From the NCBI RefSeq assembly GCF_008364845.1, contig NZ_VTTP01000015.1, positions 1 to 49,376 of the forward strand: DNA of 49,376 nt, read 5' to 3'. This DNA is from Actinotalea subterranea. GTDB lineage: Bacteria > Actinomycetota > Actinomycetes > Actinomycetales > Cellulomonadaceae. Below are positions 41,883 to 48,751 of this stretch, one piece after another. The notes beneath the pieces were generated by a model. It was not told the DNA's origin and did not search any database. It worked only from the letters and a program-made list of their open reading frames with translations. How positions within the stretch are numbered: the first letter of the stretch is position 1; each line of letters starts with the position of its first letter. The translations under genes were made by a program, and so were the position numbers.

Positions 41883-41924
41883 TTGACCTGCGTCAAGGAC
41901 TGCCGACCTCCTCCGCCCTAGCGT
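41883..41924 (+). promoter_or_regulatory. FNR-type box and class II promoter
   Basis: TTGACCTGCGTCAA (41883-41896) is a perfect TTGAC-N4-GTCAA dyad. A -10-like TAGCGT follows at 41919-41924. With a start at 41931 the dyad centre is at -41.5, the standard position for FNR/CRP class II activation. A Crp/Fnr gene lies 1.1 kb downstream. Confidence 0.7.
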
Positions 41925-41964: not shown

Positions 41965-42591
41965 ATGCTCATCAACCGCATCGTCACCGCGATCGCCGCG
42001 CTCCGTCCCGCGGTGGTGCAGGCTCACTGCGACACCGCCGAAGGTCCGGCCGTCGCCGCCGGGCACCGCGCCCTGGAGACGGGCAACATCAACCACGCCC
42101 TCGCGTGGGTCCCCGCCGACGGCGAGGCCGAGGTGCGCGAGGTCTTCACGAGCGCCCTGCGGGTCCGCGGGCTCGGCGCCGAGGCCGCACACCTGGCCGA
42201 CCGCCTGTTCCTCGAGACCCTGGTCCGCGTCCACCGGGCCGGCGAAGGTGTGGGCTTCACCGGGATCCAGCCCGCGGGAGCCCACGTCGAGCCCGTCGTG
42301 CGGGCCGCCGACGAGGCCATCGCACGCGGGTCGGACGACGACCTCCTGCCCCTCGTCCCGCAGGAGCGCCGCGCGGAGCTCGACCGTCGCTTCCGGGCGG
42401 CGCTCGCGCTCCAGGACTTCGACGTGGACGACGTCGTGGCGGGCCGTCGCTACCTCGCGGCGTACGTCGACTTCTTCACGTACGCGGAGGGGGAGGAGCA
42501 CGACCACCACGGCTCGGACGGTCACGCGCACGGCGTCGCCCACCCCGATGCGGTCCACGCCCACGACCATGACCTGAGCCACGCCCGCTAG
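41965..42591 (+). CDS. DUF6448-like protein with a His-Cys-Asp hook and His-rich tail
   Basis: A 208-residue protein. A 20-residue leader ends ...PAVVQA and is followed by HCDTAEGPAV (residues 21-30), then a helical domain with RALETGNINHALAWV and RVHRAGEGVGFTGIQPAG, which I recognise as the DUF6448 pattern. The last 30 residues hold about ten His (for example HDHHGSDGHAHG) and are a likely metal-binding tail. The HCD after a short leader recalls Ni-superoxide dismutase, whose mature chain starts HCDLPCG; here the second Cys ligand is replaced by Glu26. RBS AGGGAGAG. It is 7 bp upstream of an S26 protease gene. Function is not established. Confidence 0.8.
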   Translation: MLINRIVTAIAALRPAVVQAHCDTAEGPAVAAGHRALETGNINHALAWVPADGEAEVREVFTSALRVRGLGAEAAHLADRLFLETLVRVHRAGEGVGFTGIQPAGAHVEPVVRAADEAIARGSDDDLLPLVPQERRAELDRRFRAALALQDFDVDDVVAGRRYLAAYVDFFTYAEGEEHDHHGSDGHAHGVAHPDAVHAHDHDLSHAR

Positions 42592-42598
42592 GCGCGTC

Positions 42599-43054
42599 AT
42601 GCTCCGTGTCGTCAAGGTTGCCGGCGAGTCGATGGCGCCGACCTACCGCCCGTCCGACCTGCTGCTCACGCGGCGGGCCGGACGTGCGGGTGCCCATGTG
42701 CGACGGGGTGACGTCGTGGTGGTGCGCCACCTCGGGGTGCGGATCGTCAAGCGGGTCGTCGGCCTGCCGGGAGACGTGGTCGAGCTCGAGGCCGGTCGCC
42801 TGCTCGTCGACGGGGACCCTCTCGACGGACGGCGTCGTCTCCCGGGTGCGTACACGCAGACGTGGCGCGTGCCCGCGGGGAGCTGCTTCGTCGTGGGTGA
42901 CAACCGCGCGGCGTCGACGGACTCGCGTGTGTGGGCCGTCCCCTACGTCCAGGTCACGGACGTGGAGGCGGTCGTCGCAGGACGGCTGTGGCCGGGTCGA
43001 GCGGGCCGGCTCACGCGTCGTCGGCGAGCCGCTGGAGCCGGTCGGTCTGCGTGA
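42599..43054 (+). CDS. S26 peptidase-like protein resembling Ni-SOD maturation protease SodX
   Basis: A 151-residue serine protease of the signal peptidase fold. The nucleophile is Ser11 in VAGESMAPTY, the general base Lys51 in RIVKRVVGLPGD, and the box VVGDNRAASTDSR (about 98-110) is present. There is no membrane anchor, unlike true signal peptidase I, and the small soluble form is that of SodX, which trims the Ni-SOD leader. It follows the HCD-hook gene by 7 bp, a probable operon. It overlaps the convergent crp-like gene by 44 bp at the 3' ends. A role in cutting the neighbour's leader is inferred. Confidence 0.8.
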   Translation: MLRVVKVAGESMAPTYRPSDLLLTRRAGRAGAHVRRGDVVVVRHLGVRIVKRVVGLPGDVVELEAGRLLVDGDPLDGRRRLPGAYTQTWRVPAGSCFVVGDNRAASTDSRVWAVPYVQVTDVEAVVAGRLWPGRAGRLTRRRRAAGAGRSA

Positions 43055-43688
43055 TCGTGACCACCCGTCCGCCGTCGTGTGCGATCACGCCCTGGGCGGC
43101 GAGGCGCGTCAGTGCGCGGCTGAGGCTCTCCGGTGAGGTGTCGAGCAGGGAGGCGATGTCCTTCTTCGCGAGCGGCAGGGTCACGGTGAGGGTGGTCCCG
43201 CTCCAGTCGCCAGGCAGGCCGAGGAGGTAGCCGGCCAGTCGGCTCTCGACATCGCGCGACGTCAGCGCGTCGAGACGGTGCTCGGTGTCGGCGAGCCGCC
43301 CGCTCAGGGCCGCGAGCATCCGCAGCCCGATGTCAGGGTGCGCGCGGATCAGTGCCTCGAGGTCCTCGTGCCGGAACACGCACAGCCGGGACTCCTCGAG
43401 TGCGCTGGCGTAGTCGTCGGGCCGCCCGCCGGTGAACACCGACGTCTCACCGGTGAAGTCGCCGGGTCCGAGCACCCGGACGATGCGCTCGGACCCGTCC
43501 GGGGAGAGCCGGTACACCTTGAGGCGCCCGGTGTGCAGCACCATGAGCTGCGACCGCTCGTCGTCGGCCCCGTACGCGCGGTCCCCCGGCGCGAGGTGCG
43601 TGGGGCGCGCCAGACCGGCGACCCGCTGCTGGTCATCGGCCGAGAGGTGCGCGAAGACCGGGACGCGCGCGACGCAGGTGTCTGCCAT
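43011..43688 (-). CDS. Crp/Fnr-family transcriptional regulator
   Basis: A 225-residue regulator. The N-terminal cyclic-nucleotide-binding-type beta-roll (about residues 10-125) starts CVARVPVFAHLSADDQQRVAGL, a form seen in Fnr-like proteins of Gram-positive bacteria. A dimer helix and a C-terminal HTH_Crp (KKDIASLLDTSPESLSRALTRL) follow. Only Cys5 lies near the N-terminus, so it lacks the four-Cys set of E. coli FNR. The ATG at 43688 is 6 nt after TAGGCT (leaderless). A TTGAC-N4-GTCAA box ahead of the nearby HCD-hook gene fits the DNA specificity of this group. Confidence 0.88.
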   Translation of the reverse strand: MADTCVARVPVFAHLSADDQQRVAGLARPTHLAPGDRAYGADDERSQLMVLHTGRLKVYRLSPDGSERIVRVLGPGDFTGETSVFTGGRPDDYASALEESRLCVFRHEDLEALIRAHPDIGLRMLAALSGRLADTEHRLDALTSRDVESRLAGYLLGLPGDWSGTTLTVTLPLAKKDIASLLDTSPESLSRALTRLAAQGVIAHDGGRVVTITQTDRLQRLADDA

Positions 43689-43820: not shown

Positions 43821-44246
43821 TCAGGGGACGGTCGACCACCGACGCATGAGGTACCAGTGGTTGTGCTCGCCGTCGTGGTGGTGGCGGAGCTCGTGGACCG
43901 CGCGGCGGGCCAGGGGCAGCCCACGGCCGGCTGTCGCGAGGTCGTCGGCCGGCAGGTCACCGTCGAGGTCCAGCGGCACGAAGGCGCCGGAGTCGACGAC
44001 GTCGGCCTCCAGGAGGCCCGGCGACACGCGGAGCCGCACGTCGGCGTCGAAGGACTCCCGGCGCTCGGTGTGCTCGATGACGTTCGCGGCGATCTCGACC
44101 ACGGCGGTCTCGAAGAGCAGCCTGTCCTCGTCGGGCACCTCGGGCGCGCGCCGCCACAGGTCGGCGAACGCCGCGTGCAGCCGCTCGAGGCACGCGGGTG
44201 TGACGCAGTGCTCGACGTGCGCACGGGCGCGCAGGTCAGGAGGCAC
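43821..44246 (-). CDS. Anti-sigma factor serine kinase-like ATPase (HATPase_c, RsbW type)
   Basis: A 141-residue GHKL-fold protein. The N-box is EIAANVIEHT (about residues 50-59), the G1 box is VVDSGAFVPLD and the G2-like box is GRGLPLARRAVHELRH. Such kinases bind a sigma factor or another target and phosphorylate a STAS partner. The GTG at 44246 overlaps the STAS gene by 11 bp, so the two are expressed together. No sigma factor gene is in the window. Confidence 0.85.
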   Translation of the reverse strand: MPPDLRARAHVEHCVTPACLERLHAAFADLWRRAPEVPDEDRLLFETAVVEIAANVIEHTERRESFDADVRLRVSPGLLEADVVDSGAFVPLDLDGDLPADDLATAGRGLPLARRAVHELRHHHDGEHNHWYLMRRWSTVP

Positions 44247-44571
44247 CGAGCGCGTCCTCGACGGTCTCGTGGGGCCGCAGCACGCGGTCCATCGTCGTCA
44301 GCTCGAGGACCGTGCGGACCTGCGCGCCGGGTCGGGCGATCCGTAGGTCGCCACCCACGGCCCGCATGCTGCGCAGCCCGCCGACCAGCGCCCCGAGACC
44401 CGACGAGTCCATGAACTCGACGTCGTGGAGGTCGACGACGACGAGCCGCGCACCCCCCGCGCTCGCGGCGTCGACGGCTGTCTGCAGGGCGTTGCCCGCG
44501 ACCATCGTGAGCCGTCCGCTCAGGCTCAGGACGCTCTCGCCGCCGGGCTCCGTACGGGTCCGGACCTCCAT
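44236..44571 (-). CDS. STAS-domain anti-sigma factor antagonist
   Basis: A 111-residue SpoIIAA/RsbV-type protein. The phosphorylatable Ser is in FMDSSGLGALV (about residue 56), preceded by the usual VVVDLHDVE strand. The unphosphorylated form would capture the neighbouring kinase-like protein. It starts 3 bp after the glycosyltransferase stop; its RBS (GGAG) lies within the end of that gene. Confidence 0.9.
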   Translation of the reverse strand: MEVRTRTEPGGESVLSLSGRLTMVAGNALQTAVDAASAGGARLVVVDLHDVEFMDSSGLGALVGGLRSMRAVGGDLRIARPGAQVRTVLELTTMDRVLRPHETVEDALGAS

Positions 44572-44574
44572 GAC

Positions 44575-46590
44575 CTACTCCTTTCCGAGGGTGGCGTGGC
44601 CCCGGTACCGCAACGCCTGGACGAGCACGCTGAGCACGAGGAGGTCGTACGCGACCCAGCCGAGGTTGACGAGCGTGCCCAGCCACGGGGCGTACCCGAG
44701 GGAGAACCGGACGAGCCCGATGATGGCGGCCGCCACGAGCGTCCCCGCGGCGACGAGCTGGGGGAGCACGAGGCGCCAGGCCTGGGGGTCGGCCCGGCGC
44801 ACCTTGGACGTCACCGCGAACGTCAGGGGCCGGCCCCACCACACGTTGGCGGCGGCCGTCACGGTCGCGCGGATCCACACGGGGAAGAGTGCGAGGGCGT
44901 ACTGCTGACCGCGCCACGTGCGCAGCCCGTGCGCGGCGACGAGGAACAGCGCCTGGCTCGCGAGCTGGAACGGCACGAACCGGGCGAAGAAGTCGGCGCT
45001 CCACGCCGTCACCGGGAGGACGCCGAAGCACAGGAAGATAACCGGCGCGGCGAGGTAGACCACTGCCGCGAAGCCCGAGAGGTAGCTCCACATGGTCGCG
45101 AGGTACATGAGGCGCTGACCGGCTGCGAGGCCGCGCATGACCAGCGGGTTCTCCCGCAGCATCACCTGGAGCGTGCCCTGCGCCCAGCGCAGGCGCTGCG
45201 TCAGCATCGTGCCGAGGTCCTCGGGTGCCAGCCCGTGCGCCAGGCGCTCGTGGTGGTAGACCGTGCGCCACCCGAGGGCGTGCAGGCGCATGGCCGTCGA
45301 CATGTCCTCGGTGACCGAGACCGTGGAGATCGGCATGATCGGCTGCGCCTCGTCCGAGCGGTCCACGTCGACCGCGCCCAGCAGCGAGCGCACCGACTCG
45401 ATCGCGCCGAGCGGCGTCCAGTCGCGGGCCGCCAGCCGGTCGAGCGCGGACTCCTCGATGACGAGCTCGTGCGCGTCGTCGTCGGCCGGTCGGGGCAGGG
45501 CGGCGATCGCCTCGAGGTCGGCGCGCATGCGTGCGACGTCGTCCGCGACGAGCGTCGCGGAGATCGTGTCCACCTGCCGCTGGAACCGGTACGTGACGTC
45601 CGCGACGGCCTCGCCGGCGTCGATGCCCCGGGTCGCGTCCCGAACGGCTGCCTGAAGCGCCGTGATCGCCTCCGCCGTGCGGGGGTCGGTGGCCGTCCGC
45701 CGCGCCTTGCCGAGGACGGTGCCCGACGCGCGCAACGCCGAGCGAACGGCCTGCTCCGTCGCGCGCACGTACCCGACGAGCCCGAGCTGCATGAGGGCGT
45801 CCCGTCGCAGGATCGCGTTGGACCCGCAGAAGAACGCGGCGTTCCAGCCGTCCTTGCCCTGCTGGATGGGTCCGTAGAACAGGGGCGCCTGGCTCCCGAG
45901 CGGGTCCGCCTCGGCGACGTTCGTGAAGTACTGGGGGGTCTGGACGAGGGCCACGCGCTCGTCCCGGAAGTGGCCCAGGGTGCGGGTGAGGATCTGCGGC
46001 TCGGGGACCTGGTCCGCGTCGAGCACGAGGACGAAGTCGCCGTGCGTCGCGAACAGCGCGTTGTTGAGGTTGCCCGCCTTCGCGTGCCGCGGTCGGTCCG
46101 CCCACTGCGCGGCTCGGACGATGTACCCGACGCCGAGGGCCTGCGCGGCGGCCCGCATCTCGGGACGTTCGCCGTCGTCGAGCACCCAGGTCGCGTGGGG
46201 GTAGGTGATCTGCGCGGCGGCGCGCGCCGTGGCTGCCACGAGCTCGACCGGCTCGTCGTAGGTCGTGATGAAGACGTCGACGGTCGCGTCCTGCGGCGGG
46301 GGCCCCGGCGCGGGGCGATCCCGTGCCCGCCACATCGTCACGCTGAAGAGCGTCACGTCGATGAAGCTGTACGTCTCGGCCAGGACGAGGGGCACGGCGA
46401 TCCACCACGCCGCCCAGTTCACCGACTCGAGCCACCGCCACACGATGTAGTTGAGGCCGATGGCGACGGTGAGGGTCGCGAGGGCCCGCAGGGCGAGCAG
46501 GCGACCGGTGAGCGTGCCCGCGGGGGAGGGCACGGGTGGCGGCGCCACGGCGCTCCTCCGGCTCCCGGTCCGTGCGTCGTCGGCCCCCAT
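44575..46590 (-). CDS. BcsA-like family 2 glycosyltransferase with a 150-residue insert
   Basis: A 671-residue membrane protein. Two N-terminal helices (residues about 32-85) lead to a GT2 domain: TYDEP (110-114), VLDDG, HAKAGNLNNAL (169-179), the DAD metal motif (191-193), TED (427-429) and QRLRW (465-469). Four or five helices follow. In cellulose/beta-glucan synthases TED comes soon after the CGSNAILRR segment; here about 150 mostly helical residues (270-420) are inserted between them. There is no PilZ domain, so control by c-di-GMP is not expected. The ATG at 46590 is 6 nt after TACCGT (leaderless). It should polymerise a beta-linked glycan across the membrane. Confidence 0.85.
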   Translation of the reverse strand: MGADDARTGSRRSAVAPPPVPSPAGTLTGRLLALRALATLTVAIGLNYIVWRWLESVNWAAWWIAVPLVLAETYSFIDVTLFSVTMWRARDRPAPGPPPQDATVDVFITTYDEPVELVAATARAAAQITYPHATWVLDDGERPEMRAAAQALGVGYIVRAAQWADRPRHAKAGNLNNALFATHGDFVLVLDADQVPEPQILTRTLGHFRDERVALVQTPQYFTNVAEADPLGSQAPLFYGPIQQGKDGWNAAFFCGSNAILRRDALMQLGLVGYVRATEQAVRSALRASGTVLGKARRTATDPRTAEAITALQAAVRDATRGIDAGEAVADVTYRFQRQVDTISATLVADDVARMRADLEAIAALPRPADDDAHELVIEESALDRLAARDWTPLGAIESVRSLLGAVDVDRSDEAQPIMPISTVSVTEDMSTAMRLHALGWRTVYHHERLAHGLAPEDLGTMLTQRLRWAQGTLQVMLRENPLVMRGLAAGQRLMYLATMWSYLSGFAAVVYLAAPVIFLCFGVLPVTAWSADFFARFVPFQLASQALFLVAAHGLRTWRGQQYALALFPVWIRATVTAAANVWWGRPLTFAVTSKVRRADPQAWRLVLPQLVAAGTLVAAAIIGLVRFSLGYAPWLGTLVNLGWVAYDLLVLSVLVQALRYRGHATLGKE

Positions 46591-46696
46591 GGGACGACGG
46601 TACTGGCAGACCTGTGGTCGTGCCCGTGGGACCGGAGGCCCGTCGCGCTCGGGGCGCCGCCCTGCACGCGCCGCCCGGAGGTGCCAGCATCGACGG

Positions 46697-48751
46697 GTGG
46701 ACACGGGGCGAGAGGTGACCGGCCCGGCGCCCCTGCGTCGCGTCGTGCCCGCCGTCCTCGCGTTCGCGACCCTGTACGTCGTCGCCGCCGTCCTCGGGCG
46801 CCGCACGGTGCTGGACGACGGCTCGGTCAGCCTCGTGTGGCCCGCCGCGGGCGTCGCAGCGCTGTGGTTCGTCGCGCGTGGCGCCGCCCGGCCCTGGGCG
46901 GACCTCCTCGCGGTCGGGGGCCTGACCGTCCTGGCGAACGTCGTCACCGGTGGGGGACCCGTCGCGGCGGTGATCTTCGGTGCCGCGGCCGCCTTCCAGG
47001 CCGGGGTGTTCTCGTGGTTCCTGGCCCGGTGGGCGCCGCGGATCATGGCGGGCCGTGGGCGTGTCGGCGTCGAGACGGTCAACGAGCTCTGGGGCTTCAC
47101 GTCCGCCGCGGTCGCCGGCGCCGTCGTCGCCGCCCCCTTGGCGCTCCTGGCCGCGCTCGTCGGCTCGGGCGCCTGGGACTGGGCGATCGCCCTCGTCTGG
47201 GTCGTCCGCAACACCACGAGCGTGCTCGTCGTCGGCACGCTCGGCCTGGCGATCGGCGCCCGCCTCCCGTCCGCGCCACGGACGGACCGGCCGGTGCGTA
47301 CCGGCGCCGTCTCGCTCGTCGCGGTCGCCCAGTACGTCGCCGTGCTCGTGGTCGCACCCGCGCTCTACGCGGCGTGGTTCATCGCCCTGGACCACCTGCC
47401 GCTCGCGTTCCCGCTGATCGCGATCACCGTCTGGGTCGGCACGCAGCTGCGGACCTCGCTCGTCGTCCTGCACGCCACGGGGCTGGGGTTCGCCGCGATC
47501 TGGTTCACGCTGGCGGGTGTGGGGCCCTTCGCGCAGATCGGCGACCCGACCACCCAGGTGGTCGTCGCCCACGTGTACGTCGGCCTGGTCACCGTCATCG
47601 GCCTTGCGCTCGCGGTCGCGCGGGACGAGCGTGCGGCGCTGCTGGAGGACGTCCGAACCGCCCGGGACACGGCCGAGGACCAGGCGACCCTGCTCGCGAC
47701 CATCGTCGACACCATGGCCGAGGGCGTCGTGGTCATCGCCCCCGACGGCGGCGTGGTGCTCCAGAACCCCCGTGCGGTCGAGCTCCTCGGCGGCGTCGCG
47801 AGCCCGACCGGGGCTGTCCGGACCACGGCGTCGTACGGCATGCACCGCCTCGACGGCTCGCCGCTCCCCGAGGAGGAACGCCCCTACCGGCTCGCGCTCG
47901 CGGGCCGGCGCGTGCGCGACCTGGACCTGCTCATCCGTTCCTCGGGTGTGGGCCGCGAACGCATCGTGAGCTTCAACTCGACGCGCCTGCCCGGCCACGC
48001 GGGCGCAGGGGTCGTCACGATGGTGCGTGATGTCACGTCCGAGCGTGAGGAGCTGCACCGCGCCGCGCGCGTCCAGGAGAGCCTGCTGCCGACGGTCCAC
48101 CCGGTGGCCCCGGGGTACGACCTGGCGGCGCGGGTGGTCCCCGTCGGGTCCGTCGGTGGCGACTTCTACGACTGGTTCGGGGTGCCGGGCGGCGTCGTGC
48201 TGACGGTCGCCGACGTCATGGGCAAGGGTCTCGGCGCGGCGATCCTCGCGGCGACGTCGAGGTCGGTCCTGCGCTCGCCGTCGGACCAGGTCGGCGCGGG
48301 CGAGCGCCTCTCCCACGCGGAGCGACGGATGGAGGCCGACCTCCTCGCGGCCGGTGCGTTCGTCACGGTGTTCACGGCGCGACTCGAGCTCGCGAGCGGT
48401 GAGCTCGAGTACTCCGACGCGGGCCACGGGCTGAGCCTGATCGTCCGGGCCGACGGGACGTCGCAGCGGCTCGGCGCCAACGGGCCGCCCCTGGGCCTCG
48501 ACGTCGCAGCAGATCGCGTGGACGGGCTCGCGCGGCTGGATGCCGGCGACACCCTGGTCACCTTCAGTGACGGCATCCTCGACGGTGTGGGCGGCGTGCT
48601 CGAGGGCCTCGCCCTCGTGGAGGGGGCGGTGCGCAGCGGCGCGACCGCGGCGTATGCGGCCGACGCGGTGCTCGACCTCGTCCTCGCCGCCCAGGACCCG
48701 ACCGACGACCTCACCGTCGTGGTGGTGCGCCGGACGGGTGCGGGTGCCTGA
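46697..48751 (+). CDS. MASE1-PAS-SpoIIE phosphatase (PP2C type)
   Basis: A 684-residue sensor phosphatase. About eight N-terminal helices form a MASE1 sensory region (residues 17-308, with SVSLVWPAAGVAALWF). A short coiled coil and a PAS-like domain (about 325-445, DTMAEGVVVIAPDGGVVLQNP) follow, then a SpoIIE phosphatase domain (about 455-684) with the metal-binding Asp residues in GGDFYDWF (487-494), ADVMGKGLG (505-513) and DPTDDLTVVVV near the end. It should dephosphorylate the STAS protein encoded nearby. The GTG at 46697 is 6 nt after CAGCAT; the GTG at 46715 is an alternative start. It is divergent from the glycosyltransferase. Confidence 0.87.
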   Translation: MDTGREVTGPAPLRRVVPAVLAFATLYVVAAVLGRRTVLDDGSVSLVWPAAGVAALWFVARGAARPWADLLAVGGLTVLANVVTGGGPVAAVIFGAAAAFQAGVFSWFLARWAPRIMAGRGRVGVETVNELWGFTSAAVAGAVVAAPLALLAALVGSGAWDWAIALVWVVRNTTSVLVVGTLGLAIGARLPSAPRTDRPVRTGAVSLVAVAQYVAVLVVAPALYAAWFIALDHLPLAFPLIAITVWVGTQLRTSLVVLHATGLGFAAIWFTLAGVGPFAQIGDPTTQVVVAHVYVGLVTVIGLALAVARDERAALLEDVRTARDTAEDQATLLATIVDTMAEGVVVIAPDGGVVLQNPRAVELLGGVASPTGAVRTTASYGMHRLDGSPLPEEERPYRLALAGRRVRDLDLLIRSSGVGRERIVSFNSTRLPGHAGAGVVTMVRDVTSEREELHRAARVQESLLPTVHPVAPGYDLAARVVPVGSVGGDFYDWFGVPGGVVLTVADVMGKGLGAAILAATSRSVLRSPSDQVGAGERLSHAERRMEADLLAAGAFVTVFTARLELASGELEYSDAGHGLSLIVRADGTSQRLGANGPPLGLDVAADRVDGLARLDAGDTLVTFSDGILDGVGGVLEGLALVEGAVRSGATAAYAADAVLDLVLAAQDPTDDLTVVVVRRTGAGA

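Follow-up and report, generated by a model that had tools for sequence, protein, structure and literature searches.

The window, by which we mean the whole stretch of 49,376 nucleotides from Actinotalea subterranea that was analysed, contains on its forward strand an open reading frame (41965-42591) for a member of the DUF6448 family, which scores 176.1 bits against PF20046 (curated cut-off 27). Its translation starts with a leader of 20 residues, MLINRIVTAIAALRPAVVQA (41965-42024, forward strand), followed by HCDTAEGPAV; the leader has alanine at position -1 and is predicted to be removed before His21. The mature domain that would result starts HCDTAEGP (42025-42588, forward strand), is all-helical in an AF2 model, and ends in a His-rich tail with 10 histidines within the last 33 residues. 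After a gap of 7 nt there follows, on the same strand, the gene for an S26 protease resembling signal peptidase I (42599-43054), recognized by profile matches and by reading of the frame. This is a protein of 151 residues with the catalytic pair Ser11/Lys51 and only 8 residues before its GESM motif, and thus with no membrane anchor. The original prediction, made from the DNA alone, had described a DUF6448-type protein with a 20-residue leader followed by HCDTAEG, a His-rich tail and, next in line, a soluble S26 protease with an intact Ser/Lys pair, and all of this is found at the locus.

Two further features complete the arrangement. A Crp/Fnr-family regulator gene (43011-43688, reverse strand; cNMP_binding 65.8 bits, HTH_Crp_2 62.6 bits) is convergent with the protease gene, the two sharing 44 bases (43011-43054), and a palindrome of the FNR/HcpR type, TTGACCTGCGTCAA (41883-41896, strand not applicable), is separated by 68 nt from the start codon of the DUF6448 gene downstream. 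Next to the module, at 44236-48751, a short STAS-like frame, a large frame resembling cellulose-synthase-like glycosyltransferases and a phosphatase-like frame were recognized by eye.

The HCD motif and what precedes it

The PF20046 model aligns from residue 26 of the window protein, that is, after HCD, and a search with it is blind to the motif. It was applied to 396 genomes of the phylum (9 positive) and 200 of the family (15 positive), the window's own genome being in both, and gave 26 DUF6448 loci, two of which (L009 and L010, G293 C70) are one broken copy split over two frames. HCD is present in 27 of 27 intact loci, namely 24 from this search, the window included, and three from a search of 398 genomes belonging to the same phylum as G690; L015 and L025, identical copies within one genome, are both counted. 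Lack of conservation of HCD, which the original prediction had named as a refuting result, was thus not obtained. The family is spread patchily over many phyla, and a wider set was formed from the best 80 of at least 574 relatives, a choice that makes it lean towards the window's type. Among 78 aligned mature chains (81 rows less three that were dropped) from this wider scan, H1, C2, D3, G7, P8, W28, R68, H70, R71, E74, G75 and G80 are invariant, although for HCD the count of 78 is partly conditioned, since HCD is itself part of one of the two scan patterns, and the script sought HC. Position 6, where glutamate had been pointed out in the window protein, is indeed Glu there; the point needs correcting in that an acidic residue is found nearly family-wide (Asp in 65, Glu in 12 and Gly in one of the 78).

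There are at least three N-terminal designs before HCD. The first is a secretion-type leader, charged at its start and strongly hydrophobic in its core, and mostly has GPV after the motif. The second is a cytoplasmic-type leader and mostly has GPA; some leaders of this kind are short and of low hydrophobicity, while others look like membrane segments whose positive charges come after the hydrophobic part. In the third there is no leader, and HCD follows Met-, Val- or Leu-Pro-Pro directly; this applies to five archaeal loci (L079, L083, L095, L106, L107) and ten loci of the window's phylum (L003-L008, L014, L017, L020, L026, with Met-Ala-Pro in L003), and a stop codon lies only six (L079) and five (L106) residues upstream of HCD. 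In the betaproteobacterial copies L084, L088 and L100, HCD comes after a membrane-rich segment of 51-57 residues; L084 and L094 have two DUF6448 copies each. The residue at -1 is Ala in 68, Pro in five, Gly in four and Ser in three of the best 80 of at least 574 relatives. According to the original prediction, DUF6448 proteins in other phyla carry a signal peptide ending just before HCD. In most loci read a leader or signal peptide does end there, but a free His1 is not universal, because leaderless MPP-HCD forms occur in archaea and actinobacteria; these proteins may undergo further trimming or have a different working mode.

The leaderless forms, which keep HCD with residues ahead of it, could be cited in favour of a purely structural role for the conserved motif, such as that of a helix cap, with no metal bound. 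We consider this unlikely. His-Cys-Asp is found in every intact locus read, and two leader types as well as the neighbouring protease converge on one and the same residue; moreover, Cys2 is the sole cysteine in 61 of 78 DUF6448 proteins, which excludes an intramolecular disulfide in those.

An AF2 model of the mature chain, built with 54 sequences, has a mean pLDDT of 90.3 (95 for residues 1-10) and is all-helical, DSSP assigning isolated bridge residues at 4 and 82. Judging from this model, the N-terminus probably lies against the loop that follows the invariant H70-R71...E74-G75, and we propose a site formed by His1, Cys2 and perhaps Asp3, H70 or E74. A fold search of two models against PDB and viral libraries matched no known fold (E 0.001 for PDB), no viral relative was confirmed, and a sequence search of solved structures with the window protein gave no match to E 10. 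The four matches from a profile search of solved structures (54 rows) are taken as chance; the best is a designed protein aligned across 25 residues at E 0.00054, where no single stretch passed by itself.

Pairing with the S26 protease

The window protease scores 91.4 bits against PF10502 and 96.4 bits against the signal peptidase I model TIGR02227 (cut-off 47), and the catalytic Ser and Lys columns are filled in 29 of 29 aligned proteases from paired loci. Its adjacency to DUF6448 is not confined to this genome, which the original prediction had named as a way in which it could fail. In the set found with the Pfam model, all 13 leader-type loci, among which L015 and L025 are counted separately, have an S26 gene beside them, versus 0 of 11 other intact loci, which is more than chance would give; the flanks examined were 1.5 kb, and shorter downstream in L002 and L007. 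Among the best 80 of at least 574 relatives it lies directly downstream in 31, from four phyla, and in the same set 26 of 27 genes with GPA at residues 7-9 are paired in this way as against 4 of 47 without, once the duplicates L039 and L065 and four loci cut by a contig end have been left out. The protease is thus nearly always found in the clade with cytoplasmic-type leaders and is rare beside genes that have a secretion signal or no leader. Three loci with membrane-type leaders have no adjacent protease, namely L062, L046 (where the contig is cut) and the Peptoclostridium plasmid locus L179; conversely, L076 and L090 from Bacillota combine secretion-type leaders with an anchored protease of the exported type.

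Leader and protease also agree in type. In 29 of 30 pairs (L061 was dropped, its protease frame being unclear), either a soluble-type leader goes with an unanchored protease (21 pairs) or a hydrophobic leader with an anchored one (eight pairs); the sole mismatch, L042, has a leader that was shortened by the start-codon rule. This rule is a simple one, and the starts that it gives are unsure for L042, L055, L058, L064, L065 and L067. The seven anchored proteases outside Bacillota have their net positive charge after the anchor, from which the active site and the leader are predicted to face the cytoplasm; in the two Bacillota proteins the charge precedes the anchor, which fits an exported substrate.

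In a tree of DUF6448 with 75 of the 80 rows of the wider set (the best of at least 574), on which the leader types were assigned by us, all paired rows except the two from Bacillota form one clade of 28 (support 95/86) spanning Actinomycetota, Pseudomonadota and Chloroflexota, nested in a clade of 30 (100/99) to which the unpaired L046 and L062 also belong. Two changes of the soluble label are required on this tree, so that the soluble form either arose twice or gave way to a regained membrane form. Leader and protease would then have changed type together about twice, with the pairing kept across three phyla. It should be noted that the P values overstate the independent evidence, because they treat rows as independent and outside Bacillota the pairing may have a single origin.

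These observations bear on the possibility that the leader is a true export signal, in which case the S26 protein would be an accessory signal peptidase, DUF6448 would be extracytoplasmic everywhere and HCD would merely be what follows the signal peptide. Most unpaired relatives do have normal-looking secretion signals ending A|HCD, the window protease is above the signal peptidase I cut-off, and the Bacillota pairs have anchored proteases of the exported type. Nevertheless, we regard this explanation as quite unlikely for three reasons: the window protease is unanchored, with its catalytic motif so close to the start; the 21 soluble-type leaders rank lower in hydrophobicity than the leaders of 38 unpaired relatives (AUC 0.98); and the charge pattern in the seven membrane-type pairs predicts a cytoplasmic active site. 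From its sequence, the window leader is judged not to be a normal secretion signal and its pro-protein to be cytoplasmic, and we infer a cut at A20|H21.

Regulation, gene neighbours and proposed function

The 4.03-Mb genome has three sites with the pattern TTGACNNNNGTCAA, and a control with the pattern read backwards gave none. A TTGAN6TCAA box precedes 12 of 12 leader-type loci versus 0 of 11 others in the Pfam-model set (one duplicate and the broken copy having been dropped), and a Crp/Fnr homologue is near all 13 leader-type loci of that set. Among the best 80 of at least 574 relatives, which share some genomes with the Pfam-model set, an exact FNR-type box is found at 17 of the 31 paired loci, where 0.02 would be expected from mononucleotide shuffles, and at two of the 49 unpaired ones (0.18 expected), leaving 14 paired loci with no exact box; in the same set a Crp/Fnr homologue is near 16 of 31 paired loci, with 15 lacking one, and near two of 49 unpaired loci. 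On pSymA of Sinorhizobium meliloti 1021, which has a secretion-signal copy near 618972, a TTGATCTGTATCAA box was read by eye about 0.6 kb upstream of the DUF6448 gene.

One FNR-type box ahead of both genes might mean simply that they share an FNR regulon, the protease serving other substrates and having nothing to do with DUF6448 maturation, and the few relatives with membrane-type leaders and no protease could be cited in favour of this. It is an improbable account in our view, since it is opposed by the match of leader and protease types in 29 of 30 pairs and by the lack of the protease beside leaderless and nearly all secretion-signal forms.

The numbers for gene neighbours are raw counts from the best 80 of at least 574 relatives, uncorrected for a random-gene baseline. 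Among the 49 unpaired loci, NorB is near nine (eight within 600 nt, five of these eight being close relatives, two with the same flanking match), hemerythrin-type (HHE) genes near eight, RIC/YtfE near five and cupins near nine; for the 31 paired loci the corresponding figures are NorB 0, HHE 0, RIC 0 and cupins 1. CDF cation-efflux genes are near eight of the 80 loci (five paired), Metal_resist genes near seven (two paired; five lie within 125 nt upstream), Rrf2 regulators near six (one paired) and DUF488 near eight (one paired). We favour the view that NorB, RIC/YtfE and hemerythrin beside the relatives point to a role in nitrosative or low-oxygen stress. Co-occurrence with NO reductase was sought in the window's own family and not found: NorB is absent from its own genome and present in two of 200 family genomes, neither being among the 15 with DUF6448. 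The link to NO rests on unpaired relatives and on the type of box. For the form found in the window, a part in nitrosative or low-oxygen stress is plausible on indirect grounds, and plain metal handling is conceivable as well.

Some further observations concern the wider surroundings of the gene. A small conserved protein lies beside the pair in the proteobacterial loci L043, L047, L052 and L066; its representative from L043 matched nothing in Pfam or NCBIfam at E 0.001. DUF6448 is found on 47 plasmid records (49 places), from Sinorhizobium, Klebsiella, Citrobacter, Salmonella and others, with 35 of the 47 predicted to be conjugative. The gene on a Sinorhizobium plasmid is near a hemerythrin gene, and a search for rhizobial expression data found nothing that could be tied to the DUF6448 gene.

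A different function would be that of a metal store or carrier rather than an enzyme, as for the N-terminal-His binders DUF4198 and DUF6702. It is possible, if rather doubtful. The tail has a median of eight histidines in paired and five in unpaired proteins, Metal_resist and CDF genes occur near some loci (7 and 8 of the best 80 of at least 574), and DUF4198 offers a precedent for nickel (PMC12537917). Against this, the invariant core residues R68, H70, R71 and E74, distant in sequence, resemble a reaction centre more than a sponge, and the FNR box and the NorB and RIC neighbours point to redox stress.

Our preferred reading, which we hold to be somewhat better than an even chance, is that the window encodes a proteolytically matured His1-Cys2 metalloprotein in a three-part module, probably under FNR-like control and concerned with low-oxygen or nitrosative stress. 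In this scheme, the palindrome at 41883 is the probable target of the FNR-type regulator (43011-43688), which would switch the pair on under low oxygen or nitrogen-oxide stress. The DUF6448 pro-protein, judged from its sequence, would be made in the cytoplasm with its short non-secretion leader, and the soluble S26 neighbour would cut between Ala20 and His21, an assignment made because the pairing is conserved and the membrane topology matched. The mature chain would then begin His1-Cys2-Asp3, with its N-terminus predicted to lie against the H70-R71-E74-G75...G80 region, and could hold a redox metal through the amine and imidazole of His1, through Cys2 and possibly through Asp3 or H70/E74, the His-rich tail serving as a putative sponge for metal loading. 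In relatives with secretion signals the protein would have the same function but an extracytoplasmic site of action, and there it would be signal peptidase that frees this residue.

A broader proposal, which we put forward tentatively and consider less likely to be right than wrong by some way, is that DUF6448 represents a second family of metal-hook redox enzymes that depend on proteolytic maturation, one that evolved independently and has an unrelated helical fold with a free His1-Cys2-Asp3 at its end, matured by a cytoplasmic S26 protease or by signal peptidase outside, and acting in bacteria and archaea against NO, superoxide or their products at low oxygen. If true, a family for which neither a paper nor a convincing solved relative was found would gain an identity, as a metalloprotein with His-Cys at its N-terminus and a maturase of its own, and the nickel-hook strategy, in which ligands are kept behind a leader that is cut before they bind, would have evolved more than once. 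There would also be a predicted substrate and exact cut site for a group of soluble signal-peptidase-like enzymes, and a candidate stress enzyme for Sinorhizobium, Burkholderiales, Bacteroidota and archaea.

Comparison with known systems

The window protein is a full member of DUF6448 (PF20046, 176 bits), and the protease is almost confined to one clade of that family; a literature search on DUF6448 and PF20046 found no paper naming either. The box has a counterpart in the HcpR/FNR regulons of nitrogen-oxide metabolism, TTGACnnnnGTCAA being given as the HcpR consensus for two cyanobacteria, and DUF6448 is not named in the portion of that source consulted (PMC1274295); the regulator here is of the Crp/Fnr family.

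Type I signal peptidase (TIGR02227) resembles the window protease in its score and its Ser/Lys pair, and differs from it in that the window protease is unanchored and falls outside the housekeeping signal peptidases in a protease tree of 86 rows, in which deep support is modest. The other DUF6448-linked proteases are likewise apart from the housekeeping enzymes, except for the two Bacillota rows, which group with them.

A study of signal strapping (PMC12537917) describes four other N-terminal-His families, including DUF4198, DUF6702 and the anglerases, in which His1 becomes a metal ligand once the signal has been cut off; its main text has no occurrence of DUF6448, PF20046 or HCD. The likeness is the exposed His1, which is predicted here, and the difference lies in the neighbouring, often cytoplasmic protease and in the His-Cys-Asp motif.

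The parallel in design is with Ni-SOD. Its hook motif is HCxxPCGxY, in which Cys6 is a ligand, and HCxxPCG was found in 30 NiSOD loci. SodN is made with a short leader, which the protein encoded by an adjacent gene cleaves off (PMC3919588, PMC8346466). DUF6448 shares with sodN-sodX the short leader and neighbouring protease gene, a mature HCDxxxG and a probable cytoplasmic location, its cleavage being predicted; it differs in having neither Cys6 nor PCG, position 6 being Glu in the window and Asp or Glu nearly throughout. Nickel or SOD activity in particular is not supported, since Cys6 is absent and nothing among the checked neighbour families is nickel-specific.

Homology to NiSOD is rejected (hhalign probability 0.4%; no PF09055 match), and no NiSOD is among the 40 and 46 Foldseek PDB matches to E 10, none of which reaches E ≤ 0.001. 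A first impression by eye that the leader is NiSOD-like was dropped, because a matrix built from the final 10 residues of NiSOD leaders, without position -1, separated 21 soluble-type paired from 43 unpaired DUF6448 leaders no better than chance (AUC 0.50, P 0.51). The original prediction had spoken of a SodX-like protease, and membership of SodX is not borne out: the window protease scores 38.3 bits against TIGR02754 (28.1 in the genome search), below the cut-off of 63.25, and in the protease tree the DUF6448-linked proteins form lineages outside the 33 SodX rows (one change), the SodX branch having support of 61/71 and being kept together in 54% of 200 bootstrap trees. However, a profile of the DUF6448-linked proteases matches SodX in 33 of 33 NiSOD loci, so they are distant relatives of it. 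PF09055 has no match in the window's own genome, while the same model matched in 82 of 118 genomes of the class, and the window protease therefore has no NiSOD substrate there; in 200 family genomes it likewise gave none, as did the control genomes of that search. The forecast of a relative by design, though not by fold, thus stands with no detectable relation in sequence or fold: as read from the sequences, the design parallel to sodN-sodX holds and kinship does not.
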